Source of the DNA: a virus | DNA: 34,105 nucleotides | Strand: one strand, 5' to 3' | Virus record (IMG/VR): IMGVR_UViG_3300022890_000070 | Coordinates: 1 to 34,105 of that record | Shown: piece after piece, positions 2,692-34,105 of the stretch | Position numbering within the stretch: the first letter of the stretch is position 1 | Layout: each line of letters begins with the position of its first letter | Made by a program: the position numbers and the translations under genes | The notes under the pieces: generated by a model | Seen by the model: only the letters and a program-made list of their open reading frames with translations | Told to the model about the DNA's origin: nothing | Databases searched by the model: none

Positions 2692-2874
2692 TTATTCATC
2701 ATGACCACCTACTATTATCCTCCAATAAAAGTCTTTTTGCTTTGTACCTAAATTTAAATTATACAACCAATCTTTCATAGCTCTTTTTTCTTTGCTAGTT
2801 TTATAAGTCTTATATTCTTCGTATAACACATCTATAACTTTATCTATTGACCTTTGTTGTTTGTAATAACTCAT
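2692..2874 (-). CDS. Hypothetical phage protein, 60 aa
   Basis: A short, basic, helical protein starting MSYYKQQRSIDKVID and carrying LNLGTKQKDFYW. Similar small proteins occur next to annealing and replication genes in many Firmicutes phages; I know no function. The longer frame starts at 2895, but AAGGAG lies directly before the ATG at 2874, which I therefore prefer. It lies between the initiator-like gene and the annealing protein gene, overlapping neither, in the P1 operon. Confidence 0.7.
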   Translation of the reverse strand: MSYYKQQRSIDKVIDVLYEEYKTYKTSKEKRAMKDWLYNLNLGTKQKDFYWRIIVGGHDE

Positions 2875-2896
2875 TTTTTTTCTCCTTTTTATCATA

Positions 2897-3580
2897 TTAT
2901 TTAAAACCCTCTAATAGTTTATTTAGTTTTGCCTTGTCTTCTTTAGTTGCTTCTTCTTTTGTAATTTTATTATCAAACCAAATAGGCGTGTTAATATCAT
3001 TCGTTTTGCTTTTATCTTTGTTTTTCCAATTTCTCATAACCAAGTTATGATTTTTATATTTTTTACCGTGAGTTTCAATATACTCATCTAGATTTTTAAT
3101 CATAGTTGGATAGTCGGGAAAATCATCTTTTAACTTATCAAATTGTTTATCAGTTAATAACACATTTTTATATTCGCCATATGTCTTATTACTATTCTTT
3201 ATATTCTTTATATTCTTAGTAGTGGTTATTTGTTGGTTATTTGTTGGGGATTTGTTGGTTATTTTATTTTCTACACCTTGATATTTTCCCCAATTTACTA
3301 TGGTTATAACTGAATATTTGTTGGTTGAAGTGATGGTTATGTTTTTGGTATTTACAAGTTTCTGTAATGTTGTCCTTATTTGTTGTTCTGATAATCCAGT
3401 TGCCTTTGCCAGTTTTTTTCTACCAGTTATAAACGAACCTTTTTTAATTAAAATACCATGCCATTTTTTGTCTTCATAATTAGCATTAAAAAGACAGTGT
3501 ATAAATAACGATATTACATTAGGGTGGTCATGCCACTCCCAGTCCAATATTGACTTATGCAGTTTTATCCAACCGTTCAC
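2897..3580 (-). CDS. Replication initiator / DnaD-like N-terminal winged-helix protein
   Basis: A 227-aa protein, the first gene after promoter P1 and its leader RNA. It opens with WIKLHKSILDWEW and has a winged-helix region: KKGSFITGRKKLAKATGLSE at about residues 46-65, then QIRTTLQKL and a wing-like TSTNKYSVITI. This is the N-terminal pattern of phage replisome-organiser proteins. A Thr/Asn/Lys-rich linker (about 105-130) leads to a C-terminal helical region that may recruit host helicase loader. Start codon is GTG at 3580, about 10 nt after AGGAAG. No helicase or polymerase is encoded, so host proteins would be recruited. The fold is likely; origin binding is inferred. Confidence 0.75.
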   Translation of the reverse strand: MNGWIKLHKSILDWEWHDHPNVISLFIHCLFNANYEDKKWHGILIKKGSFITGRKKLAKATGLSEQQIRTTLQKLVNTKNITITSTNKYSVITIVNWGKYQGVENKITNKSPTNNQQITTTKNIKNIKNSNKTYGEYKNVLLTDKQFDKLKDDFPDYPTMIKNLDEYIETHGKKYKNHNLVMRNWKNKDKSKTNDINTPIWFDNKITKEEATKEDKAKLNKLLEGFK

Positions 3581-3599
3581 ACAATATCACTTCCTTTAA

Positions 3600-3711
3600 T
3601 ATAAAAAGATAACAAACATATATATAACGACTAACTTAAATTATCGGGTAGACAAAGTGTTAGTCGCTATGTATATATCTGCTATCATGTGTCTACCCTA
3701 CTCTTCTATCT
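3600..3711 (-). ncRNA. Structured leader RNA / attenuator of the replication operon
   Basis: Between promoter P1 and the initiator gene, the minus transcript folds into a 28-bp hairpin. Arms are 3659-3686 and 3608-3635, with a 23-nt loop at 3636-3658. The stem has 23 Watson-Crick pairs, four G-U pairs and one C-A mismatch. The plus-strand transcript would instead have four A-C mismatches, which points to selection on the minus RNA. An upstream GGGTAGAC (3691-3698) is perfectly complementary to GTCTACCC inside the loop (3646-3653), so a pseudoknot or alternative fold is possible. A five-U tract (3603-3607) follows the stem, as in an intrinsic terminator. No known RNA family was recognised. Confidence 0.75.
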
Positions 3712-3717
3712 AAATTT

Positions 3718-3746
3718 ATTTTACTACTAATTAGATCCATTGTCAA
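3718..3746 (-). promoter_or_regulatory. Promoter P1 (replication/recombination operon)
   Basis: TTGACA (3741-3746), a 17-bp spacer and TAAAAT (3718-3723) make a near-consensus vegetative promoter. It lies immediately after the stop codon of the 66-aa gene, with a predicted start near 3711. It drives the structured leader and the genes from 3580 downwards. Confidence 0.85.
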
Positions 3747-3754
3747 CACTATTT

Positions 3755-3955
3755 TTAATATTCTTTTATGTATTGTTTAACATATGGTTGATATTCTAAA
3801 TCTCTTAATAATTGAATATGTTTTGCGTTGTCTAATTCTTTAGCTACTGACTTATTATGTGTATGTTCTACATCTACTATTCTTTCAGTTAATTCATCAT
3901 ACTCATAATCAAAAACGAAAAATCTAACATCATACATATCTTTATATAGTTTCAT
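3755..3955 (-). CDS. Hypothetical protein, 66 aa
   Basis: A small soluble protein rich in Tyr and acidic residues, beginning MKLYKDMYDVRFFVFDY, with a helical C-terminus. I recognise no family. Its ATG overlaps the previous gene's stop as ATGA, so it is coupled to it, and it is the last gene of the P2 operon before promoter P1. A ribosome binding site AAAAGGAGG precedes it. Early-operon genes of this size in phages often target host proteins, but there is no direct evidence here. Confidence 0.65.
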   Translation of the reverse strand: MKLYKDMYDVRFFVFDYEYDELTERIVDVEHTHNKSVAKELDNAKHIQLLRDLEYQPYVKQYIKEY

Positions 3956-4125
3956 TTTTCCTCCTTTTCTAATTCATTTATTATTTTTTTTCCAACTTCC
4001 ATACCATCTCTAAATACTAATTCATATAATTTAGTGGCTTCCTTAACTATTTTAATAATTTGTTCTTCTACTTTTTTATTATCTATAGTTGCAATTGTTT
4101 TTTTAACAACTTCTTCTTTAGTCAT
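3952..4125 (-). CDS. Hypothetical helical protein, 57 aa
   Basis: Read directly from the DNA. ATG at 4125 overlaps the stop of the upstream gene by 8 bp and its TGA overlaps the next ATG as ATGA, so spacing on both sides is that of a true operon gene. GAGGT lies just upstream of the ATG. The product is Lys/Glu-rich and probably a single long helix or helical hairpin (VEEQIIKIVKEATKLYELV), with no membrane segment. I recognise no family. Confidence 0.65.
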   Translation of the reverse strand: MTKEEVVKKTIATIDNKKVEEQIIKIVKEATKLYELVFRDGMEVGKKIINELEKEEK

Positions 4126-4507
4126 TATTTACCTCCTCAACTTTTTCTACTAAATCAGCTTTTATTAGGTCTTTTACATATTTTTTAATTATTTTGTTAT
4201 TTGTTTTAATTGTTTCATAATAAAGATGTTCTTTAACATCAGGTTCTAATACTATCATATCAACAGAATTTTCGTTTATAACTTTGCATTCCCACAATTT
4301 TAAAATCCTGCTATCATTTACATCTCTTCCACTCCACATATTATAATTAGGTTCTTCATTACATATTGTTATAATTAGTTTTTTTTCTAAATCAACTACT
4401 TTAACTAATTTTGTTGGATATACTGCAACGTGACTTATTTCAAACCCAAACTTTTCCAACTCTTTCAAATCTACACTATCTTTAATTTTTAACATTATAT
4501 TAAACAC
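4118..4507 (-). CDS. Hypothetical protein, 125-129 aa
   Basis: A soluble phage protein with the opening LKIKDSVDLKELEKFGFEI, a form common in small early phage proteins of unknown function. Two starts are possible. GTG at 4507 sits about 5 nt after AGGAAGG. ATG at 4495 is overlapped as TAATG by the open frame upstream. The ribosome binding site favours GTG. The middle is beta-rich with Trp residues (NMWSGRD, LKLWECKV) and the C-terminus is a charged helix. No catalytic motif is visible. It is a member of the P2 operon. Confidence 0.7.
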   Translation of the reverse strand: MFNIMLKIKDSVDLKELEKFGFEISHVAVYPTKLVKVVDLEKKLIITICNEEPNYNMWSGRDVNDSRILKLWECKVINENSVDMIVLEPDVKEHLYYETIKTNNKIIKKYVKDLIKADLVEKVEEVNND

Positions 4508-4689
4508 TTAACCCTTCCTACTTTTCTCCAACCATCTTCTTCTACACATTGTTGTATGAAAGTATTATCTATTATCATAGCATCTTCAATCTTTTTAGTT
4601 CTTTCAATTACACTCTCGTGCCATACATTTTTAATAAACCATTTATCGTTTATAATAATCTTGCTGTATTTATAACCTACTGCTTTCGT
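4495..4689 (-). other. Open frame without a standard start (possible broken or frameshifted gene)
   Basis: A frame of 64 sense codons runs from 4689 to a TAA at 4495 with protein-like content (INDKWFIKNVWHES, EEDGWRKVG). It fills the gap between two genes exactly and ends in TAATG at the next ATG. No ATG, GTG or TTG occurs until codon 38. It is in the -1 frame relative to the 88-aa gene that ends at 4677, so a frameshift (programmed or mutational) or a rare start is needed. I see no canonical slippery heptamer. Confidence 0.4.
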
Positions 4690-4943
4690 TCATTCCACCC
4701 TAATTCTTCTATTTGTTTTTGTATTGCTTCATTTAGCACTTTATATATTTCTAAATGTTCACATCTACCATTCCTAATAGCATAAGTTATAATACAATAA
4801 TCGTTATTTTCAAATTCTTCAAAAATAATATGTTCTCCTAAATATTTACCTTGTTTAACCTTTTTATAAAACTTGCGTTGTATAGGTGTTTGATTAGTTG
4901 TTAATCTATATCCCAACTCTTCAAACATTTCTTTTGCTTTCAT
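4677..4943 (-). CDS. Hypothetical early phage protein, 88 aa
   Basis: The protein starts MKAKEMFEELGY, a beginning shared by many small Firmicutes phage proteins. It continues with a beta-rich middle (KYLGEHIIFEEFENNDYCI) and a conserved C-terminal helix LNEAIQKQIEELGW. I know no function for this family. It begins directly after the stop of the 27-aa membrane peptide with AAGGAGG upstream. It ends where the start-less frame 4495-4689 takes over in the -1 frame, so a longer fusion product cannot be excluded. Confidence 0.75.
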   Translation of the reverse strand: MKAKEMFEELGYRLTTNQTPIQRKFYKKVKQGKYLGEHIIFEEFENNDYCIITYAIRNGRCEHLEIYKVLNEAIQKQIEELGWNERKQ

Positions 4944-5027
4944 TTACTTACCTCCTTTTTTCCAGTTCAACATATAATATAATACGTTTAGTGATACGAA
5001 TGCAATTAAGCCTAATATTAAAATCAT
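4944..5027 (-). CDS. Small membrane peptide, 27 aa
   Basis: Read directly from the DNA. The ATG at 5027 overlaps the stop of the glucosaminidase-like gene as ATGA, and the TAA abuts the next ATG with no gap. The product is almost entirely one transmembrane helix (ILILGLIAFVSLNVLYYM), followed by a short basic end WKKGGK, implying N-out/C-in topology. The position directly after a membrane-anchored wall enzyme suggests a partner role, but that is inference. The AAGGAGG for the next gene lies within its last codons. Confidence 0.6.
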   Translation of the reverse strand: MILILGLIAFVSLNVLYYMLNWKKGGK

Positions 5028-5569
5028 TTATTTATCTCCTTTAATTTATTATATTGTTTCGTAACTCCTTTATACCAATGATGATTTAATCCGTTTGGAT
5101 CGTTATCAGCACCGATAGGACAATATTTCTTTTGTATTTGGCTTATAGTAGTTAATCCTTTATCTAAATAACCAACTCTCAAATTACGAGCAAAGAACAT
5201 TATACCTTCTTCTAATGTTTTAAAGCTACGCAGACCTTTACTTGTCATATTACCACCAACATTATTCTTGTTTTTGAAAGCACTAGAAGTAAAATGTCCT
5301 GTTTCGTGAATACTAATTGCCATCAATAATTCATATTCTACATTGTATTTTTCACTAGCAAGTCTAAACAAGTCATCTCTAGTTAATTTAACAACCTCTA
5401 CCACTTCTTTATCTTCTTCTAGTGTTATGTTGTCATCTTGTTCTATAACCTCTATATCGCTTTCTATTTGCTTAACGTCTAGGCTAAATTGTTTTCCACC
5501 TACACGGATTGTCAATGCTATAAACATTATTAAAACGAAAGTAATAAATATCGTTATTACAATTTTCAT
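5024..5569 (-). CDS. Membrane-anchored glucosaminidase/lysozyme-like enzyme
   Basis: A 181-aa protein with an N-terminal signal anchor (residues 2-21, ITIFITFVLIMFIALT), an acidic linker (about 30-60) and a C-terminal domain of the glucosaminidase/lysozyme-like superfamily. The domain contains the catalytic Glu motif AISIHETGHF (Glu89), then KNKNNVGG and the late WYKGVTKQYNKL. It should cut cell-wall glycan outside the membrane. Unlike the M15 enzyme and holins it is encoded in the P2 (early-type) operon, separate from the lysis genes. A role in wall remodelling, superinfection exclusion or envelope access is therefore possible. ATG follows GGGAG. The superfamily is confident; the exact bond cut is not. 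Confidence 0.75.
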   Translation of the reverse strand: MKIVITIFITFVLIMFIALTIRVGGKQFSLDVKQIESDIEVIEQDDNITLEEDKEVVEVVKLTRDDLFRLASEKYNVEYELLMAISIHETGHFTSSAFKNKNNVGGNMTSKGLRSFKTLEEGIMFFARNLRVGYLDKGLTTISQIQKKYCPIGADNDPNGLNHHWYKGVTKQYNKLKEINK

Positions 5570-5579
5570 ATTATCTCCC

Positions 5580-5768
5580 TTATTTTATTTTTAAGTTTTG
5601 TACGTTCAACGTCATTACAACAGTTGAAGTAATTAAAGTTATAATAAACATTCCATATTCGCCAATAGTTTCAAAATTAAGTCTTATCAATAATTCATAA
5701 GTTAAAATCAATACTAAAGTCATATTCAATACTCTGATTAAAAAGTTCTTTGAAATAAATTTAAACAT
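5580..5768 (-). CDS. Small membrane protein with two helices, 62 aa
   Basis: Two hydrophobic segments, about residues 9-26 (LIRVLNMTLVLILTYELLI) and 38-55 (YGMFIITLITSTVVMTL), are separated by a short polar turn. The ends are basic, giving a hairpin with both termini probably in the cytoplasm. GGAGGTG precedes the ATG, which overlaps the preceding gene by 8 bp. It lies just upstream of the membrane-anchored glucosaminidase-like enzyme and could work with it. A holin-like function cannot be excluded from topology alone. Confidence 0.7.
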   Translation of the reverse strand: MFKFISKNFLIRVLNMTLVLILTYELLIRLNFETIGEYGMFIITLITSTVVMTLNVQNLKIK

Positions 5769-6045
5769 TTGTCTTCACCTCCACGTTTTTTGTAGTCATC
5801 ATTAACTTTCTTAATTCATGTCCCCATATCCAAGAATGTTTATGATTGTCTAAATGTTCTTCATACTCTGTTCTATACCATTCTTTATGTTCCATAGGTT
5901 CATTATCTAGTAAATCGTTTAGATAGTCTAATGCGTCGCTTTCGTTTAACCAAACTTGATCTGCATTATCTATTGTATATAATGTATTATCATCAATCAT
6001 AGTAAACTCATTTCCTTTCATTATTTCTAATTGGTTATCAGTCAT
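5761..6045 (-). CDS. Hypothetical acidic protein, 94 aa
   Basis: A soluble acidic protein rich in Asp, Glu, Trp and His (for example VWLNESDALDYLNDLLDNE and HKHSWIWGHEL). It is predicted to be mainly helical in its C-terminal two thirds, with a short beta region at the start. Strong acidity and small size recall DNA-mimic or anti-host proteins of early phage operons, but no motif proves this. Start is TAATG-coupled to the 54-aa membrane protein gene. Confidence 0.65.
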   Translation of the reverse strand: MTDNQLEIMKGNEFTMIDDNTLYTIDNADQVWLNESDALDYLNDLLDNEPMEHKEWYRTEYEEHLDNHKHSWIWGHELRKLMMTTKNVEVKTNV

Positions 6046-6209
6046 TATTCATCATCTCCAAAAAAGTAATCAAATCTTAATCCTATTAACAATATAATAA
6101 TTGCTACCAATATTGATAACCAAACTAAACAAAAATCTACTGACAATACAAACCCTACAATCAACCATACAAATATAACCGTTAATACAAATAATAATTT
6201 ATTTTTCAT
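6045..6209 (-). CDS. Small membrane protein, 54 aa
   Basis: Read directly from the DNA. It has two transmembrane helices, residues about 4-23 (LLFVLTVIFVWLIVGFVL) and 27-43 (CLVWLSILVAIIILLIG), and ends in an acidic tail FFGDDE. ATG at 6209 lies shortly after AAAGGAG and overlaps the previous stop as ATGA. The TAA overlaps the next ATG as TAATG. Spacing and composition make it a convincing gene. The function is unknown; it joins a group of small membrane proteins in this operon. Confidence 0.65.
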   Translation of the reverse strand: MKNKLLFVLTVIFVWLIVGFVLSVDFCLVWLSILVAIIILLIGLRFDYFFGDDE

Positions 6210-6379
6210 TTTAATATCTCCTTTTCTATTTTATTTAAATTCGCTGTCGTGATACATTCTATTTGTCCTTCTATAATTAACTTATCAAATAATATTCTCA
6301 CACATGCTAATTCAGTACACGATAACTTTGCTAATGTTCTTAAAGCATTTTTAACATTATCTAATTGTTTATTGTTCAT
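6206..6379 (-). CDS. Hypothetical helical protein, 57 aa
   Basis: Read directly from the DNA. ATG at 6379 follows GGGAG at somewhat long spacing and overlaps the end of the XRE gene by 11 bp. TGA overlaps the next ATG. The product is a soluble, mainly helical protein (LDNVKNALRTLAKLS, then IEKEILK) with three Cys residues that form no obvious zinc pattern. I do not recognise it. Its position directly after a regulator could mean a partner or anti-repressor-like role, which is only inference. Confidence 0.55.
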   Translation of the reverse strand: MNNKQLDNVKNALRTLAKLSCTELACVRILFDKLIIEGQIECITTANLNKIEKEILK

Positions 6380-6575
6380 TTTTATCTATCTCCCTTATAT
6401 ATTCGGTAATTGTCAAGTAAGTCATTGCTGTTTCGTATTGATCTAATGTAATATTGCTTTTGCCGTTTTCTAATCTGTTATATTGTTCTCTACAAATGTG
6501 AAGTAAATCCGCTATATCTTGTTGAGTTAATTTTAGTGCCTTTCTACGTGCCTTTAACTGTTTTAAAAATTTCAT
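6369..6575 (-). CDS. XRE-family helix-turn-helix regulator, 68 aa
   Basis: A compact Cro/C1-type DNA-binding protein. A basic first helix (KQLKARRKALK) is followed by the HTH at about residues 17-40: LTQQDIADLLHICREQYNRL and then ENGKSNIT, the classic XRE end. Its C-terminus is too short for a repressor multimerisation or cleavage domain, so it resembles Cro. It is the first gene after promoter P2, with GGAGG before its ATG. It could control P2 and perhaps P1 or P3. With no integrase or second repressor here, it more likely times transcription than maintains lysogeny. Confidence 0.85.
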   Translation of the reverse strand: MKFLKQLKARRKALKLTQQDIADLLHICREQYNRLENGKSNITLDQYETAMTYLTITEYIREIDKNEQ

Positions 6576-6595
6576 ATTGCCTCCTTTGTAATTAA

Positions 6596-6624
6596 ACTAT
6601 AACATTAAACATCACACTTGTCAA
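6596..6624 (-). promoter_or_regulatory. Promoter P2 (early small-gene operon)
   Basis: TTGACA (6619-6624), a 17-bp spacer and TATAGT (6596-6601) form a near-consensus promoter. The start would be near 6589, only about 14 nt before the XRE ATG, so the leader is just a ribosome binding site. This contrasts with P1 and P3, which have long structured leaders. Confidence 0.85.
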
Positions 6625-6651
6625 CCCCTAATTGAATAAAGTTTACACAAA

Positions 6652-6684
6652 TAAAAAAAAGACTTAATATTTCAAGTCTCTTTT
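6652..6684 (-). terminator. Intrinsic terminator of the virion/lysis operon
   Basis: On the minus strand AGACTT (6674-6679) and AAGTCT (6660-6665) form a six-base stem with an eight-base loop, followed at once by a run of about eight U. It lies at the end of the long P3 unit, overlapping the last codons of the 42-aa gene, and just before promoter P2. Confidence 0.85.
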
Positions 6685-6792
6685 GATACGATCTATTGTA
6701 TATCTTAATGAGGCGTATATGGTATATCTACCAGTTACACGTTTCTTTCTATACATTTTATATAGTTGTATATAATCTTTTAGTGGTTTCAT
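6664..6792 (-). CDS. Small basic protein, 42 aa
   Basis: Read directly from the DNA. ATG at 6792 overlaps the stop of the M15 endopeptidase gene as ATGA. The TAA lies inside the terminator stem at 6660-6679. The product is strongly basic and Tyr-rich (YKMYRKKRVTGRYTIY), of a size and charge that would fit nucleic-acid or envelope binding, but I recognise no family. No good ribosome binding site is seen, so translation would depend on coupling. It is the last gene of the late unit. Confidence 0.55.
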   Translation of the reverse strand: MKPLKDYIQLYKMYRKKRVTGRYTIYASLRYTIDRIKRDLKY

Positions 6793-7424
6793 TTAAACAC
6801 TACTAATGTATTACTATTTCTACAATCTATATGCGTCCAACTCTTACCAACTTCTAATCCAGTCACTCCAAGTTGTTGCCAGTTATCTTTAATGAAATCA
6901 TTAACAACAGTAGGGGATACGTCCTTAACTTTGAAGTCAATAGCGTTTCCTAATATATGTTGGCTTTTAGAACTTCCTCTAACTGCTTTATTATATGCTT
7001 CACTCCTATATCCACTTGTTACCGTTATAGGTTTACCGAAATAATCCCTGATAGTTTGGATAGCATTTAATATGATCATGTTAAGTTTTAAATATTCCGT
7101 GCCATCATCTTGCATCAATTCTTTTATTTTGAAAGATTTAACCACAGATAACTCTTTAGACACCCATTTAAACTCACTCACACCATCTTTAATCAATTCA
7201 AGGGCAATTGTTCCAGTTGGTATCAATTCGTTTATATGGGCTTTAAATTCCCTTATACTCTCATCTCTGATTTCTACCTTATCCTCTAACATAACCTTGC
7301 ATTGTTCTAACGCTTCAATTAAATTAGTCTTTTTTAGTAGTTCGTTCTCTAATTCTTCTATATGTAAGTTTGTTTCTTCAGTTGTTTTATTTTTAACAAA
7401 TAACTTTGCAAACCATTTAAACAT
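6789..7424 (-). CDS. M15-family peptidoglycan endopeptidase (endolysin)
   Basis: A 211-aa protein. The first 110 residues hold a coiled-coil region rich in Leu/Glu/Lys (HIEELENELLKKTNLIEALE). The C-terminal 100 residues are an M15 zinc peptidase (VanY/Ply500-like) with SGYRS (137-141), SQHILGNAIDF (His156, Asp163) and SWTHID (His198), the three zinc ligands. It should cleave L-Ala-D-Glu or D-Ala-type bonds in the wall peptide at lysis. No wall-binding domain or signal peptide is seen. It follows the phi-LC3-type holin gene directly, the usual lysis pair. AGGAGTAG precedes the ATG. Confidence 0.85.
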   Translation of the reverse strand: MFKWFAKLFVKNKTTEETNLHIEELENELLKKTNLIEALEQCKVMLEDKVEIRDESIREFKAHINELIPTGTIALELIKDGVSEFKWVSKELSVVKSFKIKELMQDDGTEYLKLNMIILNAIQTIRDYFGKPITVTSGYRSEAYNKAVRGSSKSQHILGNAIDFKVKDVSPTVVNDFIKDNWQQLGVTGLEVGKSWTHIDCRNSNTLVVFK

Positions 7425-11100: not shown

Positions 11101-11495
11101 TCCATATCAAATGCGTCATCGTTTATTCCGTCTGGATCATAAACAGCTTTTGTCATATCTCCTGTACCAGCTACGTCTGTCCATTCTGTATCGTAATTAG
11201 TAGTTGATTTTTTAGATAATACTTGTCCTGTTGTTCCACCTGCTGCTACACCTGCTCCTGTTGCACCTGTTTCACCAGTAGCTCCTGTGTCGCCAGTTTC
11301 TCCTTGTATACCTTGTGTACCTTGATTAGCATATCCAGTTAGATCGGCTGTAATCTCATTTGTTTCTAAAGTAGCTGTAATCTCATTTGTTTCTAAAGTA
11401 GCTGTAATCTCGTTTGTTTCTAAAGTAGCTGTAATCTCGTTTGTTTCTAAAGTAGCTGTAATCTCGTTTGTTTCTAAATCAGCAGTTACATCCAT
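8103..11495 (-). CDS. Tail fibre / receptor-binding protein with repeats, LamG-like and C1q-like domains
   Basis: An 1130-aa modular fibre. The N-terminus carries five copies of ETNEITATL (residues about 8-50), then a collagen-like GXX run (GTQGIQGETGDTGATGETG). A long beta-rich shaft follows, with recurring motifs such as TTGQVLSKKS and TGQFLKDDGTWATP, typical of phage fibre repeats. A LamG/concanavalin-like module (DNA about 8560-9200) is clearly related to one in the hub protein at 12865-15051. The last about 120 residues resemble a C1q-like trimerising head (IPAKYNGATVLVQAGV ... DYFVVTVNQSSGG). This is the likely host-recognition protein. GGTG precedes the ATG. Confidence 0.85.
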   Translation of the reverse strand: MDVTADLETNEITATLETNEITATLETNEITATLETNEITATLETNEITADLTGYANQGTQGIQGETGDTGATGETGATGAGVAAGGTTGQVLSKKSTTNYDTEWTDVAGTGDMTKAVYDPDGINDDAFDMDNMVEGTLTKILTADERTILSNTTNTNSGDNATNTLYSGLEASKQDTLVSGTNIKTINSTTILGSGNIDTPDTTYVSSDFTHNDLSGINAGTDNEHITETQETNFEAAYTHIGESGASHTYIDQSVISGSSPTFDGNNFTGIDADDVAVDVTNFDGILSATDVDVQTALETIDDIDSDDVSEGTTNLYNQTHTGDVTGSEALTIGAAKVTEAMQILADNTTNDVSITKHGYVPKAANTGQFLKDDGTWATPAGSGNVSTSGTPVANDIPRFVNGTDIEGLTYAELKDALNLEIGSDVQAYAANLSEWSGVNPSTNGKSLVSAVDYAAMRTLLNIADGSTANSADATLLARANHTGTQVASTISDFDTEVANNTAVALNTDKLTNVSTNLSEGTSTTTTVDVNSSDGTNATLVSASTSRAGLLTKAKFDEIVANTLAKHDAVTVTDTDEIDLTLTGQEIKADIKSASIDETKLDTSVNASLDLADSSTQPGDLGTAAAEDVGYFATAAQGSTADSAMQDLTDDTTPQLSADLDLAGFALTDSTNNTIDIKERTFVLNSDDTYPLSITSNDGAGGGGTVSQAAGALDFTNNVTLSGTVLNIGDADDADLTKLSDISSTATEIDTTVDDNVHQEALNNALKFDGASSKAISGSFTSLNVGTIYFEVLTGNMNETSSFIASFSATNDYVIYKSGSTGEKWRITTNSNTYGSETVLPNTRYKIVFRWNGTTYDIFINGSKDTLAVSDATTQLALTKLALSYWESSSNSWTEQNIFEFRADSSAITEVNALLLTAGTITPESVLPAASTELVYTNFDSITTVTNSGTTASANLTGTDLTLAEDITNFGLLAENGQLLEDKYGLGGAGALVNLTANETTTASTDLSIPWDTATYDTDSFWSSGAATRLTIPAKYNGATVLVQAGVRWDSDATGGRFASIFLNGSIETAVDVVTAGSRYERGYANLGKTFHDVSTGDYFVVTVNQSSGGDLDVTTDTRTFFQITVIK
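11347..11481 (-). repeat. Five tandem 27-bp repeats in the fibre gene
   Basis: Five head-to-tail 27-bp units, nearly identical in DNA (one synonymous a/g change, and the unit nearest the start codon diverged at its end), encode the nonapeptide ETNEITATL. The near identity suggests recent expansion or strand-slippage exchange, which would change the length of the fibre N-terminus in steps of nine residues. Confidence 0.95.
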
Positions 11496-25360: not shown

Positions 25361-27703
25361 CTATATTATTTTGCCAAATCCTGCTTTTCTTATCTGTTCT
25401 GCTCTCTCTGGTGTAGTATCTAATACTTCGCCTTTTTTAACTGCTCTACCTAGTGCTATATCGTCATAGCCGTTAGTTATCTTAATCTTACAATCTAAAT
25501 TAGGTTCTTCTGTATACACATAGTTATCATTCTTACCACCTAGATCACCTATTAAGTCTATCCAGTCTTGTATATTGTCCTTCTTATGGTATTTAAAGCC
25601 TCTTAGATCCTCTTTAAGCATTCTATCTATAACTTCGTCCATGTTACTCATATCTAGCTCTAATAGATAGCCATTAACGCCATCTTGTATTTGTTCTACT
25701 GCACTCTCGTACTTGGTTACTAACATTGGTACTCCACAACTAATAAACTCTATTGTTGTTCTAGGATAGCTTTCATGTGATGAAAACTGTACTCCAAAGT
25801 CTGCTCCTTGCATATAATCAGTTACATTTAATCTTGGCTCTCTTTTAATAAAGCCATCTATATCACTTGGCATACTACCATCAGTAAATACTTCCCAAGT
25901 GAACGGTATCTTCCTTGCATTTAACCTTTGTGCAAATAATACCATTCTATCTAGTATGTTTCCTTTATCGCTACCTAGTCTAGTAGCACTCACTAAATAA
26001 AATCTTTTCATTGGTTTAGGTTCATCAAATAGGTTGTATAATACACCACATTTTACATTCGGTGCTACGTCCTCTACAGCCTTTGCAGATGTTATGCTAT
26101 CAGCTGTGACTGAAGTGGTCATTGGTGACTTCGGATAATGGTGCATATAGCCGTTCATGTTATTACATATTTGTTGATGTACTCTCTTGGCTTTTAAGTT
26201 CTTTTCTATAATGTGTGGATTTAATCCAAAGTGAAAGAATAAATCACATTCTAAATCTTGTCCTGTATTCTTAACACACTTAACTACTTTCTTGTATCTT
26301 GATAACTGGTATGGATCACATGTATCATATAGCATTATTATATCGTATGTATCTTTTAAGTATTCACATGCTGCATACATTGATGTTTCTATACCACCCA
26401 TTTTAGTTATCCTTGATCTATGAAATATCACTTGTGTTTTAACTGGTCGCTTTACTTTAATTTCGTGCTTCAAATATTGTGTAGATAAACTATCTTCTCT
26501 ACCAGCGTAATAAATATACAATGGTTCTACTATGTTTACCTTTTTGCCTTTTCGTACATTCTTATTAAACTCTATTTCTTCTCCAACTTGTAGGGTTTCA
26601 TCAAATCTATGACTACCTACTGTTTTTCTATTATATACACAATTCCAACTACAAGTGTTTTCTCTTATAGGTCGGTCTTTTATTTCCATAACTCTGCCGT
26701 CTTGATATTCCCAGCTCATAAATCCGTAGCCAAATTCTCCCTCGTCTATTTTAGCTAACCATTTCTCTATATAGTTTTCTTTTATCATATCGTCGCTATC
26801 AATGAACGCTATATATTTACCTGTTGTGTTGTCTATTCCTGTATTTCTAGCTTTAGATACTCCACCGTTGTTTTGGTGTATGGCCTTTATTGGTAATTTA
26901 TCTAGTCTAGTTTCGTTACAGCCGTCATCTACTAACATAACTTCTACTCTTTTATTTAATTGTGGTAATAATCTATCCATTAGTCGCATTGTTAACTCAT
27001 AAGTCTTGTAGAATGGAATTATAATTGATAAGTCTATATCATAGTATCCCCTTTTAGATAGGTCTACTCCAATGCCTTCTTTTTTAAACAACTCTAATAC
27101 TTCATTAGTCCATTTACCTTTTACTACTCCCCATGGTTTCATGTCTTTGTAGTACCCCATGTCTATTACATGATCGCCTTGATTTAAGTAGTGTTTATAT
27201 GGACTGTCTAATCTTTGTGTTTCCCATTCCCATATAGTCATAGGATTTTTAGTTAATTCTATTAGTTTCTTCCTATTCCATACTGCTGGTTGTGTGTTAC
27301 ATAAATATATAACACGGTTTTTTCTTAATCTAAACTGTCCTATCTTTTCTTCTTGAAACCAACCATTACGATTAGCAGATACATTTTGAAAATTAAATAC
27401 TGCTGTATCTTCATCAAAATTATTGGTACAAAATTCTATAATGTCTTGCTTTACTGGTTGTCTTATAAAATAATCTTCTAACAATAATATTACATATTCG
27501 CTATCTAGTCTTTCTAATGCTTTATGTAACCTAGTCGTCCATTCACCTTTAATTGTAAAAGTGTTTTTGTTGTATTTTTTAGTTTCGGTACATATATAGG
27601 TATCATATGGACAATTAGTCCAATATTTGTTTTTTAGTATAAAGAACGGATCTAATAAATCTATATAGCCATCACAACTCATTACTAAAATATCAGTTTT
27701 CAT
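25361..27703 (-). CDS. Three-domain glycosyltransferase (GT-A like, GT2, GT4-like) with small C-terminal domain
   Basis: A 780-aa protein. Residues 1-220 are a GT-A-like domain seen in polysaccharide loci (YVILLLEDYFI, NTQPAVWNRKKLIEL, WGVVKGKW). Residues about 224-425 are a GT2 with DLSIIIPFYKTYE, MLVDDG, NNGGVSKARNTGID and the DXD motif AFIDSDD (302-305). About 430-720 is a GT-B (GT4-like) with KMGGIETSMY, VSATRLGSDKGN and ESYPRTTIEFISCGVPML. The last 50 residues (GRAVKKGEVLDTTPERAEQ) are a short module typical of phage proteins rather than of transferases. It would add several sugars to a glycan or protein. It overlaps the upstream GT gene by 4 bp. Confidence 0.9.
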   Translation of the reverse strand: MKTDILVMSCDGYIDLLDPFFILKNKYWTNCPYDTYICTETKKYNKNTFTIKGEWTTRLHKALERLDSEYVILLLEDYFIRQPVKQDIIEFCTNNFDEDTAVFNFQNVSANRNGWFQEEKIGQFRLRKNRVIYLCNTQPAVWNRKKLIELTKNPMTIWEWETQRLDSPYKHYLNQGDHVIDMGYYKDMKPWGVVKGKWTNEVLELFKKEGIGVDLSKRGYYDIDLSIIIPFYKTYELTMRLMDRLLPQLNKRVEVMLVDDGCNETRLDKLPIKAIHQNNGGVSKARNTGIDNTTGKYIAFIDSDDMIKENYIEKWLAKIDEGEFGYGFMSWEYQDGRVMEIKDRPIRENTCSWNCVYNRKTVGSHRFDETLQVGEEIEFNKNVRKGKKVNIVEPLYIYYAGREDSLSTQYLKHEIKVKRPVKTQVIFHRSRITKMGGIETSMYAACEYLKDTYDIIMLYDTCDPYQLSRYKKVVKCVKNTGQDLECDLFFHFGLNPHIIEKNLKAKRVHQQICNNMNGYMHHYPKSPMTTSVTADSITSAKAVEDVAPNVKCGVLYNLFDEPKPMKRFYLVSATRLGSDKGNILDRMVLFAQRLNARKIPFTWEVFTDGSMPSDIDGFIKREPRLNVTDYMQGADFGVQFSSHESYPRTTIEFISCGVPMLVTKYESAVEQIQDGVNGYLLELDMSNMDEVIDRMLKEDLRGFKYHKKDNIQDWIDLIGDLGGKNDNYVYTEEPNLDCKIKITNGYDDIALGRAVKKGEVLDTTPERAEQIRKAGFGKII

Positions 27704-28317
27704 ATCATTCCCTCTTTTTTCACGAAATCAAATTCACCTTTTAGTGACCTATCGTTAACACTGCCAATTCTTGGATAATTATAATGATATGCTATTATCT
27801 CTGTATATAAATTACTATTGCTATTTTTAAATAATTCTTGTGTGAAACTTACATCTCCGCGTCCTTCTGGTCCGTACACAGCATCACCAAGTATTGTTCT
27901 TTTATATATCTTTAAATTTCCACTCCATAAAATTCCTTTATTACGAGCTTTAAATATGTGTCCATTTGTTGCTAATAAATCAAACCAATACATATCATAA
28001 GTTCCATCTACCAATTTACACACTTCTTTTATTTTTGGTAAATAATAATCATCAGTATCTATCATAGTTATATAATCACCTGTTACTTGGCTTAATAATT
28101 TATTACAAGTATAACTATTACCTTTATTTATATCATTAGTTATTATTTTGAGTTGTGGAATTTGATTTTCATATTTTCTTAACAACTCCAATGAATTATC
28201 TGTTGAACCGTCATCACATACTATGATTTCATATGCGTATTCTAATGGTATGCTTTCTATCATCTTTTCTATCCATTTTTCACTGTTATACATAGCGGAT
28301 ACGAAACTAATATTCAT
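27700..28317 (-). CDS. Glycosyltransferase family 2
   Basis: A 205-aa GT-A fold transferase, near the minimal size for a GT2 catalytic domain. Visible motifs are SFVSAMYNSEKWIEKMIESI at the start, ICDDGSTDNS (nucleotide binding), GNSYTCNKLLSQVTGDY and the metal-binding DXD MIDTDDYYLP. The later part has GPEGRGDVSFTQELF, the likely acceptor-side segment. It has no transmembrane helices, so it is cytoplasmic or works in a complex. It sits between the FrhB-like and the three-domain transferase genes with 1- to 4-bp junctions, a tight cassette. Donor and acceptor are unknown. Confidence 0.9.
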   Translation of the reverse strand: MNISFVSAMYNSEKWIEKMIESIPLEYAYEIIVCDDGSTDNSLELLRKYENQIPQLKIITNDINKGNSYTCNKLLSQVTGDYITMIDTDDYYLPKIKEVCKLVDGTYDMYWFDLLATNGHIFKARNKGILWSGNLKIYKRTILGDAVYGPEGRGDVSFTQELFKNSNSNLYTEIIAYHYNYPRIGSVNDRSLKGEFDFVKKEGMI

Positions 28318-28318
28318 G

Positions 28319-29077
28319 TTATCCTCTTTCTGCTGATTTCACCACACTAGGATTATATTTAATCACTTTATTTATATCAACTTCTATATAGTCTATTTTG
28401 TCCTTGATTTTGTCAAACAATAGTTCGCCTTTTAATGTTTTTATAAATACCGCAGACACGCCTTTATTATCGGCAAAGTCAGGGTATTCATTTCCTATGC
28501 CCCAAAAATCTCCTAGCATTATATCACTATTACTCTTAAAGTTTTTAAACTGGCAATTATAACAACTAGCACATAGGTTTTTATCTCCTAAAAAATCTTG
28601 CATAAATTCATTATTTTGAAAAGGTTGTAATACTATCTCTCCATTACTTAACTCATATCTAACTTTGAAATTAGTCCATCCTTCTTCTTTATCTCTAAAG
28701 TCCATATCTATTATTCCGTTATCGGCACAATACTTATTAAAGGCTTCTTTTGTTGGTGTGCCATGACATATAAAGTCTATTTGATATAAGTTTTCTTTTG
28801 GCTTTGTCATTTGACAAGGTGTTCCACTAAATAAAGTTAGTTCATTGGTTATTAATTTATAATTTACTGTTGATCTAACATATTTACTTTTCCGTAACTT
28901 CGTTAAATCTTCTTTATTATCTATTTTAATGTGTTTAACATCTAACTCATCCCAAGCAGCACCAATTACTGATCCGCCTTGTTCTATTATATGTTCAGCT
29001 AATGCTGTAAATATACCACCACTAGAACTCTTTAACCTAATGCTGTCATCTTTATTCTTTACTGCATATACTTTCAA
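28319..29077 (-). CDS. FrhB-like (F420 hydrogenase beta / polysaccharide pyruvyl-transferase partner) Fe-S protein
   Basis: A 252-aa protein of the FrhB_FdhB_C family. It shows SSGGIFTALAEHIIEQGGSV near the start, LTKLRKSKYVRS, LFSGTPCQM and DFICHGTP. A cysteine cluster LCASCYNCQFKN and SDIMLGDFWGI, the hallmark end of the family, follow. Homologues next to polysaccharide pyruvyl transferases in capsule loci are thought to carry out a redox step on the sugar; the usual N-terminal ferredoxin part is absent here. Start is TTG at 29077, a few bases after AGGTGA, overlapping the upstream gene by 26 bp. Confidence 0.85.
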   Translation of the reverse strand: MKVYAVKNKDDSIRLKSSSGGIFTALAEHIIEQGGSVIGAAWDELDVKHIKIDNKEDLTKLRKSKYVRSTVNYKLITNELTLFSGTPCQMTKPKENLYQIDFICHGTPTKEAFNKYCADNGIIDMDFRDKEEGWTNFKVRYELSNGEIVLQPFQNNEFMQDFLGDKNLCASCYNCQFKNFKSNSDIMLGDFWGIGNEYPDFADNKGVSAVFIKTLKGELLFDKIKDKIDYIEVDINKVIKYNPSVVKSAERG

Positions 29078-30083
29078 TTAAATCACCTAATCTATAACAT
29101 TCTTTTTTATAATCTGGCATTATTTCTTCAAGGTGTTTTTTAATGCTATCTTTATTTTCATATATCCATTTAAAACTATTAGTTAAATCATCTGCTGTTT
29201 TCATATCTTCTGATGGCAACACATAACCTTTGTATGTTCCAAATAAGTCCTGTGCTATGCCCTTACTCTTAATGGAGTATCCAACTACTAATGTTGGTAT
29301 ACATTGACTATAACTGCTTACACTAGCGTGTGTTCTTGCTGTTACTAACATTTTACATTTACCTATATAACCTTTAAGTTCCATAGCGTTACCATTTACT
29401 ATTCTCATCCTACCATTATTAATATATAAATCATTTAACATTGGCATATCATTATTTATCTCTTGTGTAACGTGTGGTACTAACATCACATTATATTGTG
29501 TATTGTTCATTATATATTCTATTAGATTTTCATAGTTTGCTCGCGACATATCATCGCTAACAAAATTACTAGCATTTATACCTATCCACTCTTTGCCCAT
29601 ATCGTCAAACTCAACTTCTTCAGTTTTTAATACAAAAGCACTATCAGGTATAAGTTCACAATCTATTCCGTTGTCTTTTAGTGCATTATAAGTTATACTC
29701 TCACGAGCTGTTATAAGTGAATATCGTTGTAAATCATCTACAATATCAGGTATAACTTCAGGTGTGATGCTACAACCTATCAAAGCAGTTTGCAACCCAT
29801 AATCATAAAACGACATATTTTCTTTTGCAAGTAAATCAATCGCACCTGGATAACAATAGTTATCTCCACCTATAGAAATTGCTATACCGCCTCTTCGTCC
29901 TATTATATTGTTCTTATATATTGTTAGCCCTTTAATTTCATCTAGTCCCCATTTATAATCTTCCCAATGATTATTAGAATATAAATCTATATCATCAAAC
30001 TTACATATATCTATAAGCGTTCTTACGATTGCTTCACAGCCGTGGTTCGCACTACCGCTATGAAAATACATTATAGTTTTCAT
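29052..30083 (-). CDS. Polysaccharide pyruvyl transferase family protein (WcaK-like)
   Basis: A 343-aa GT-B-like transferase that puts pyruvyl ketal groups on sugars. The family start YFHSGSANHGCEAIVRTLID is clear. Further marks are GGIAISIGGDNYCY, a switch region YSLITARES, CELIPDSAFVL and the C-terminal MLVTARTHASVSSYSQCIP, the conserved R-x-H segment. There is no membrane segment. It overlaps the dehydratase gene as ATGA and the FrhB-like gene by 26 bp, so all three are translated together. The pairing with an FrhB-like protein is the same as in exopolysaccharide loci. Confidence 0.9.
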   Translation of the reverse strand: MKTIMYFHSGSANHGCEAIVRTLIDICKFDDIDLYSNNHWEDYKWGLDEIKGLTIYKNNIIGRRGGIAISIGGDNYCYPGAIDLLAKENMSFYDYGLQTALIGCSITPEVIPDIVDDLQRYSLITARESITYNALKDNGIDCELIPDSAFVLKTEEVEFDDMGKEWIGINASNFVSDDMSRANYENLIEYIMNNTQYNVMLVPHVTQEINNDMPMLNDLYINNGRMRIVNGNAMELKGYIGKCKMLVTARTHASVSSYSQCIPTLVVGYSIKSKGIAQDLFGTYKGYVLPSEDMKTADDLTNSFKWIYENKDSIKKHLEEIMPDYKKECYRLGDLIESICSKE

Positions 30084-30997
30084 AGTTTATCAATTATTTC
30101 TTTAAGTTCTTTTTTAGTTATCTTCACACAGTTGCTACTTGTAAACGGTTCTGTGTATTCAACTTTACTTGTTATTTGAGAATTAACTCTATATCCAAGT
30201 GGAGTTCTTTCGCTATGATTAAGTTCGTTAACTGTTAATAAGGCTTCTCCTGTCTTTTCAATGCCACGCATACCAGTTATAACTTGGTTATCACTTATAG
30301 CGTCTGCTAGTTCTCCTATGGTGCAACCTTTATTTTCGTATATAAATAAGTCTTGATGTTCTCCTTTTTCTAAAGCATACAATACTAACTCAACTGCTTC
30401 ATCTATACTCATAAAGAACCTTGTCATACTTCTATCAGTAATAGTTATTGGTTTTCCTTCTTCTTTAAGTGTCAACCAATGTGGTACAACACTACCTTCG
30501 CTACCTATAACATTACCATATCTAGTGATAATGATATCTGTATGTCCTTTGAACATACTTAAGCCCATTCGTTCCATTAAAAATTTGGTAGATCCATAAG
30601 TTGTTTCTGCGTTGGCTGCTTTGTCAGTAGACAACATAACTAATTTGTTTACCTTGTTTTTATCACAAGCAAACATAACATTACGACTTCCTATTACATT
30701 TATATCTATTGCCGTTAATGGTTGTGCTTCACATATATCTACATATTTGTTAGCTGCTGCATGTATACAATAATCTACACCTTCTAGTGATCTATTGATT
30801 TCCCTAAAGTGTGTAATATCTCCAATAATAAATTTGATTTTCTTATTGTCATTAAATAATCTACGCATGGCTACTTGTTTACTTTCATCTCTACTAAATA
30901 TTCTAACTTCTTTTACATCTAGTTCTAATAATCTTTTAGTCATAGCTTTGCCTAACGATCCTGATCCACCTGTAATTAAGATAACTTTATTCTTCAT
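30080..30997 (-). CDS. UDP-GlcNAc 4,6-dehydratase-like SDR enzyme (PseB/CapE type)
   Basis: A 305-aa extended SDR protein. The NAD(P) loop TGGSGSLG is at residues 9-16, HAAANKYVDICEAQP at about 79-93, the catalytic STDKA at 123-127 and YGSTK at 134-138. This set, with Asp-Lys plus Tyr-Lys, is that of inverting UDP-GlcNAc 4,6-dehydratases (PseB, CapE, FlaA1), which start the synthesis of pseudaminic acid or fucosamine-type sugars. It has no N-terminal membrane domain (unlike CapD). GGAGG precedes the ATG. It begins the cassette, directly after rusA. Confidence 0.9.
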   Translation of the reverse strand: MKNKVILITGGSGSLGKAMTKRLLELDVKEVRIFSRDESKQVAMRRLFNDNKKIKFIIGDITHFREINRSLEGVDYCIHAAANKYVDICEAQPLTAIDINVIGSRNVMFACDKNKVNKLVMLSTDKAANAETTYGSTKFLMERMGLSMFKGHTDIIITRYGNVIGSEGSVVPHWLTLKEEGKPITITDRSMTRFFMSIDEAVELVLYALEKGEHQDLFIYENKGCTIGELADAISDNQVITGMRGIEKTGEALLTVNELNHSERTPLGYRVNSQITSKVEYTEPFTSSNCVKITKKELKEIIDKL

Positions 30998-33800: not shown

Positions 33801-34105
33801 TTACTTTACCACTTTTATTTCATAACCTAGTTTTTCTGATATTTCAGCAATCGTTAATTCTTTGATTTCTTCTTCTATTGCTGGTTTGTAATCTTTTATA
33901 AATAATATTTCATTTTCATTTCTAACTTCTGTAACTTCCCAATTTTCTCTTCTTCTTCCAAAACACCAACCAAACTCTAATTTTATTTCTCCACATACCC
34001 AAGCATTTCCAGATACCCAAGCATTTCCAGATACACTAGCATTTCCAGATACCCTAGCATTTCCATATACACTAGCATTTCCAGATACCCTAGCATTTCC
34101 AGATA
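33801..34105 (-). CDS. VSGNAx hexapeptide-repeat protein, 3' part
   Basis: This is the continuation of the gene that begins at 205. It holds about six more VSGNA[W/R/S] units. The last unit is closed by VCGEIKLEFGWCFGRRREN, then a soluble C-terminal segment (WEVTEVRNENEILF) and a helix ending GYEIKVVK. TAA is at 33801-33803. The joined protein has about ten beta-helix turns flanked by capping segments. No other gene lies between its stop and promoter P3, and no terminator is seen, so transcription of P1 may run into the P3 region. Confidence 0.85.
   Translation of the reverse strand, partial: SGNARVSGNASVYGNARVSGNASVSGNAWVSGNAWVCGEIKLEFGWCFGRRRENWEVTEVRNENEILFIKDYKPAIEEEIKELTIAEISEKLGYEIKVVK
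33993..34105 (-). repeat. 18-bp tandem repeat array, part 2
   Basis: Six to seven copies of the 18-bp unit encode VSGNAx. They are continuous in phase and frame with the array at 1-84 once the shared six terminal bases are collapsed. Neighbouring units are often identical in DNA, so copy number may vary and may also be mis-assembled. Confidence 0.9.

Follow-up and report, generated by a model that had tools for sequence, protein, structure and literature searches.

A phage leader RNA of recurrent layout before a replication initiator gene, a proposed variant of leader attenuators

In the rep leaders of IncI and IncB plasmids, a hairpin loop pairs with a flanking element of the replication-initiator leader, forming a pseudoknot. 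The c4 RNA of P1 and P7 can be set beside the CI RNA of satellite phage P4 as a comparison. In P4 immunity, CI RNA pairs with seqA, upstream of CI, and stops expression of the replication genes by premature termination (PMC4825925). In the repC leader of pT181, and likewise in the repR leader of pIP501, formation of a terminator-like stem just ahead of the start codon is opposed by a competing segment upstream (PMC5703833).

The leader considered here lies in IMG/VR virus record IMGVR_UViG_3300022890_000070, of which the whole 34,105-nucleotide stretch analysed is called the window, and occupies, on the minus strand, the gap that separates a small gene ending at 3755 from a DnaD-like gene starting at 3580. 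Its parts, with the gene that follows, are:

3718-3746, minus strand: promoter TTGACA-17-TAAAAT, near-perfect (11/12 positions in a sigma-70 consensus scan)
3690-3698, minus strand: 5′ element E, GGGUAGACA, exactly complementary to 9 nt of the loop
3641-3688, minus strand: 15-codon reading frame, MIADIYIATNTLSTR, spanning the 5′ arm and the loop, with a weak AGGG Shine-Dalgarno sequence 7 nt upstream
3659-3686, minus strand: 5′ arm (B) of a 28-bp stem, from the fold and the pairing count
3646-3654, minus strand: loop element E′, UGUCUACCC, complementary to 5′ element E
3608-3635, minus strand: 3′ arm (B′) of the 28-bp stem, from the fold and the pairing count
3603-3607, minus strand: U5 tract right after the stem, a possible terminator tail
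3590-3597, minus strand: Shine-Dalgarno sequence AAAGGAAG of the initiator gene, left free by the stem
2897-3580, minus strand: DnaD-like helicase loader or replication initiator (phrog_2514, E 2e-27), the first gene after the leader

From the position of the promoter, the transcript is predicted to start at about 3711. The parts follow one another in the order E-B-E′-B′, so that the E:E′ and B:B′ helices cross; E′ lies in the 23-nt loop of the stem, the spacer between E and the stem is 3 nt long, and the stem base adjoining the U-tract is A-U rich. Exact copies of GGGTAGACA occur in the window at two places only, 3690-3698 (minus strand) and 3646-3654 (plus strand).

An earlier note on this DNA had placed the leader before a replication operon, and the identity of the next gene bears this out. 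Besides that DnaD-like loader, the genes near the leader include a recombination protein (phrog_11717, a PHROG without assigned function, which we take to be Erf-like), NinB and an exonuclease-like fragment. The closest matches to the terminase, at ~42-44%, are in phages of Solobacterium, Anaerostipes, Streptococcus and Enterococcus, and a Firmicutes-like host is therefore likely. Within the initiator gene, Tandem Repeats Finder reports an iteron-like 11-bp tandem repeat, TGGTTATTTGT, in 3.8 copies (3223-3264, minus strand); it is a likelier candidate for the origin of replication than the leader stem, which was considered for that role and, given these repeats, did not clearly qualify.

With the pT181 leader, the window leader shares a terminator-like stem directly before the initiator gene and a competing upstream segment. 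The pT181 pre-emptor, however, pairs with the 5′ arm of the terminator, whereas the window element pairs with the loop, and in pT181 the choice is driven by an antisense RNA from the opposite strand: near 3500-3610 of the window no consensus-like plus-strand promoter was listed, by a consensus scan that weak promoters could escape. As with P4 CI and c4, the window loop is complementary to an upstream target in the same leader, before replication genes. The P4 arrangement differs in that CI is cut out of its leader and pairs with targets on both sides, whereas the window has one target, a long stem and a U-tract; there is no second, downstream target of the seqC type, the 9-mer occurring only twice in the window, Rfam finds no c4-type RNA there, and the relatives of the window phage point to a Firmicutes host. 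From the IncI/IncB leaders it differs in having its element 5′ of the stem and its Shine-Dalgarno sequence free. On these comparisons, the best reading is that the window leader would work like the pT181 or P4 leaders while belonging to neither.

Two other hairpins look closer to the IncI/IncB type: at L006:4860-5010 (before a DnaD-like gene) and L112:9369-9520, long hairpins have loops complementary, over 8-12 nt, to the next gene's Shine-Dalgarno region, and are possible pseudoknots hiding the ribosome site.

The likeness to P4 raises the tentative possibility of self-antisense feedback: a short terminated leader would build up with genome copies, and its free loop would pair in trans with newly made transcripts at their 5′ element, block E:E′ and favour termination, giving copy-number control or immunity without an antisense promoter. 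The order of promoter, target, hairpin with complementary loop and replication genes does resemble P4 immunity (PMC4825925), each element found, here and in the leaders described below, is complementary to its own loop only, and the 3-nt linker in the window hinders pairing in cis once the stem is complete; against this, the window has no seqC-like third copy and no Rfam match to known phage antisense RNAs.

The observations of the earlier note survive refolding almost entirely. The two arms pair on the minus transcript as it had counted (23 Watson-Crick pairs, four G-U and one A-C), UUUUU follows the stem at 3607-3603 on the minus strand, and the stem is indeed better formed as minus-strand RNA: the minus strand folds at -35.3 kcal/mol, where shuffled sequences average -18.0 (z -5.66; none of 200 shuffles as good), the plus strand at -21.0 kcal/mol, with the element pairing and not the long stem as its minimum-energy structure. 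The complementarity between 5′ element and loop is also real, but covers nine nucleotides (3690-3698 and 3646-3654) where eight had been claimed; by shuffling of the 5′ flank, a 9-nt match of loop and flank has a p of ~0.0026.

Folding of successively longer prefixes gives a predicted order of pairing. The E:E′ helix is the minimum-energy structure of window prefixes of ~65-85 nt; at ~90 nt it gives way to the long stem B:B′, the last pairs of which form at ~105 nt, where the U-tract is reached. All three leaders of a second phage, G004, described below, are predicted to make this shift from E:E′ to B:B′ as well. Alone, E:E′ is worth -12.6 kcal/mol and the full stem -31.5. Because the spacer between E and the stem is only 3 nt, the full 28-bp stem and the 9-bp E:E′ helix can hardly coexist, and would compete. 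Of the “pseudoknot or switch” that had been suggested, the competing pairing thus gains support, while a simple pseudoknot becomes less likely than alternative or partial pairing.

The reading we prefer, at a probability of about one half, is that this is the 5′ leader of an early replication and recombination mRNA and acts as a co-transcriptional switch, an attenuator, by way of termination and regulation that would run as follows. Transcription would start near 3711, and E would first pair with E′ in the still-open loop, keeping the 5′ arm inside that hairpin. As the 3′ arm emerges, the 28-bp B:B′ helix would displace E:E′, ending at the U-tract, where it would favour termination or arrest ahead of the Shine-Dalgarno sequence. 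The balance between E:E′ (read-through) and B:B′ (stop) would set the amount of initiator made, and might be tipped by an RNA, a protein or polymerase speed. The leader would then probably be an on/off or volume control for replication. What supports this directly is the promoter, the two helices and the way they cross, the order of folding as predicted, and the recurrence of the layout in independent leaders. The earlier interpretation is in this sense partly supported, its observation being confirmed: a leader RNA before the initiator operon agrees with the promoter, the strand asymmetry and the similar leaders elsewhere, and attenuator, sRNA and regulatory switch are still conjecture. The leader is best called a phage leader RNA of recurrent layout, a variant of leader attenuators.

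With its A-U-rich base next to the U-tract, the stem would be unusual as a terminator. Canonical intrinsic terminators have a short G+C-rich stem, a loop of 3-8 nt and a U-tract; the 28-bp stem, A-U-rich base and 23-nt loop of the window depart from this form, though the U5 is present, and a consensus terminator scan reported none in 2800-7000, the leader stem not being listed. In Rfam 15, no family reached the gathering threshold anywhere in the window or in locus L111 of the G004 contig described below (the only matches were to miRNAs, below threshold), in keeping with the earlier note, to which no known RNA family had seemed to fit. The long stem might instead serve processing or stability, as an RNase III substrate or 5′ stabiliser, with the complement between element and loop incidental or structural. 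Stems of 18-28 bp, as found in these leaders, are long enough for RNase III, and in all of the leaders with a U-tract the stem lies between promoter and start codon; this explanation is unlikely all the same, leaving the recurrent complement of loop and 5′ flank unaccounted for, and likewise the U-tract right after the stem.

In ribosome-mediated attenuation, the helix that forms would depend on a ribosome translating the 5′ arm and loop as a 15-codon leader peptide (3688-3641). The open frame, with AGGG 7 nt upstream, does cover both arm and loop; its Shine-Dalgarno sequence, however, is weak beside those of the phage's own genes, and the other leaders, when read, contain no equivalent frame or peptide. 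The frame is possibly coincidental, and such a mechanism is highly improbable.

The only close copy of the leader in the collections searched comes from the same virus, on a 13.8-kb contig (L022/L001) that is 99.93% identical and differs from the window only at 11238-11263, with no difference in the leader; a 24.9-kb contig is identical to the window where compared, and the leader falls outside that contig. No sequence-conserved homologue of the leader was found in INPHARED or upstream of 15 initiator homologues, and it is unmatched in the terminase relatives G001-G003 (loci L115-L117). No further leader turned up in the contigs of some 20 relatives, of which large parts were covered, and no similar leader stands upstream of PF09681 genes in 398 genomes of one phylum. 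Most related phages are without such a leader at the initiator, which counts against the attenuator reading.

A shared sequence motif was ruled out by the homologue, motif and stem-arm searches together. The pair GGGTAGACA...TGTCTACCC is carried by 15 viral stretches, about the chance level estimated for a collection of this size, and several of these are iteron-like CTACCC clusters of a different layout; the stem arm GTTAGTCGCTATGTAT recurs only in the same virus and in two chance matches. At L019:10231-10480 and L026:5144-5416, GGGTAGA/TCTACCC is densely clustered, with 9-10 copies of either orientation in ~280 bp; these clusters resemble origin iterons and, the shared 9-mer apart, have no relation to the window.

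What does recur is the layout: on three other phage contigs, the same crossing order is found downstream of promoters in unrelated sequence. One of these, IMGVR_UViG_3300013120_000220 (G004, locus L111), has three such leaders:

15944 of G004: leader 1, before a replisome organiser (phrog_4880, E 9e-34)
20297 of G004: leader 2, before a small gene without PHROG match, which we take to be DUF6948-like
32387 of G004: leader 3, before a DNA methyltransferase (phrog_116, E 7e-70)

Two of the three, in L111, were listed by a scan that looked for a long hairpin after a promoter and did not require loop complementarity; one of those two had already been found by a loop-complement scan, and the third leader came from the rest of the contig. 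All three have promoters matching 11-12/12 positions and stems of 18-22 bp; in each, 7-10 nt of the loop are complementary to the 5′ flank, and U5-U7 and the start codon follow. Each G004 element is presented by a small hairpin upstream, as part of its loop, so that contact between element and stem loop may there be a kissing loop; the window has no such small hairpin. In another virus (L317), the orthologue of the DUF6948-like gene, at 51% identity, is preceded by a different leader with the same crossing order, its crossing helices being 13 bp and ~14-16 bp, without a U-tract. In PinkBerry phage LS06-2018-MD08 (L306), the layout stands before an HNH endonuclease/replisome organiser operon, with a 26-position stem and an 8-nt loop complement. 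Four leaders share this layout and not an alignable sequence, a MAFFT alignment having misplaced the stems. No report of the same layout in a phage was found in the literature.

Among other high-scoring candidates, L215/L112 and L203 had top crossing scores and were set aside, L112 being of the loop-to-Shine-Dalgarno type and L203 low-complexity. In Vibrio phage 1.085.O (L150:36593), a promoter and after it a 23-position stem, whose loop has a 7-nt complement on the 5′ side, stand just ahead of two tRNA genes; rather than a leader, this structure may be a degenerate tRNA.

How far does this recurrence exceed chance? In 2.37 Mb of largely non-redundant phage sequence there are 84 long hairpins, of which three (the window and two from G004) have a promoter-like site of at least 10/12 no more than 130 nt away; a 5′-flank complement of at least 7 nt is present in all three, against 8/84 overall. 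When 188 regions following promoter-like sites that match at least 11/12 positions were scored for crossing helices, the window came top with 32.1, the best shuffled control reaching 22.0. Scores of at least 26 were obtained for 8/1,699 intergenic promoter-like regions (some of the eight being the same place twice) and 0/5,097 shuffles, and scores of at least 24 for 4/85 windows just after strong promoters. Crossing repeats also occur without promoters, in an estimated ~0.3-0.6% of promoterless intergenic windows with the known leaders removed, which makes some of the excess over shuffles a general one, and the enrichment at promoters looks real but modest. Over four leaders, wobbles on the sense strand number 12 G-U against 1 A-C (p 0.0017), this and the other p-values being optimistic because the G004 leaders were partly found by features later tested; flank shuffling gives only 0.05 and 0.09 for two of the G004 leaders.

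The wobble count bears on whether the inverted repeats only resemble an RNA structure and are in fact a DNA-level site: a replication origin, operator or recombination site. Interleaved inverted repeats adjoining an initiator gene, and the promoterless intergenic crossing repeats elsewhere in these phages, are consistent with such a site. It is nevertheless very unlikely: the wobbles favour sense RNA by 12 to 1, the plus-strand fold is much weaker, the iteron-like repeats are inside the initiator gene instead, and in G004 three different sequences occupy three promoters of one phage.

A wider and rather doubtful reading is that such leaders form a recurrent, sequence-independent class (promoter, 5′ element, long stem with matching loop, U-tract, Shine-Dalgarno sequence) of self-antisense attenuators, by which each early operon would sense its own transcript level; one phage could then run several orthogonal copies, as the three leaders on the G004 contig suggest. 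A leader type kept only as a layout is invisible to searches for sequence conservation, and if the layout is a true regulator, it would be an overlooked control of replication initiators and other early genes in low-GC phages. Orthogonal leaders, each matching only itself, would also be useful as synthetic gene-control parts.

Some further features of the window may be recorded. The same 18-bp tandem repeat is present at both of its ends (1-79 and 33990-34105), and L022 reads across the junction: the genome is therefore probably circularly permuted or terminally redundant, its ends meeting inside the repeat. A second near-perfect promoter, TTGACA-17-TATAGT with an extended -10 (6596-6624, minus strand), precedes a small HTH regulator (6369-6575), a possible lysis-lysogeny or early regulator. 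At 25361-30997 on the minus strand lies a cassette of glycosyltransferases, a polysaccharide pyruvyl transferase, an F420 hydrogenase/dehydrogenase beta-subunit-like protein and a polysaccharide-synthesis epimerase, an unusual phage cargo that may modify the host surface.
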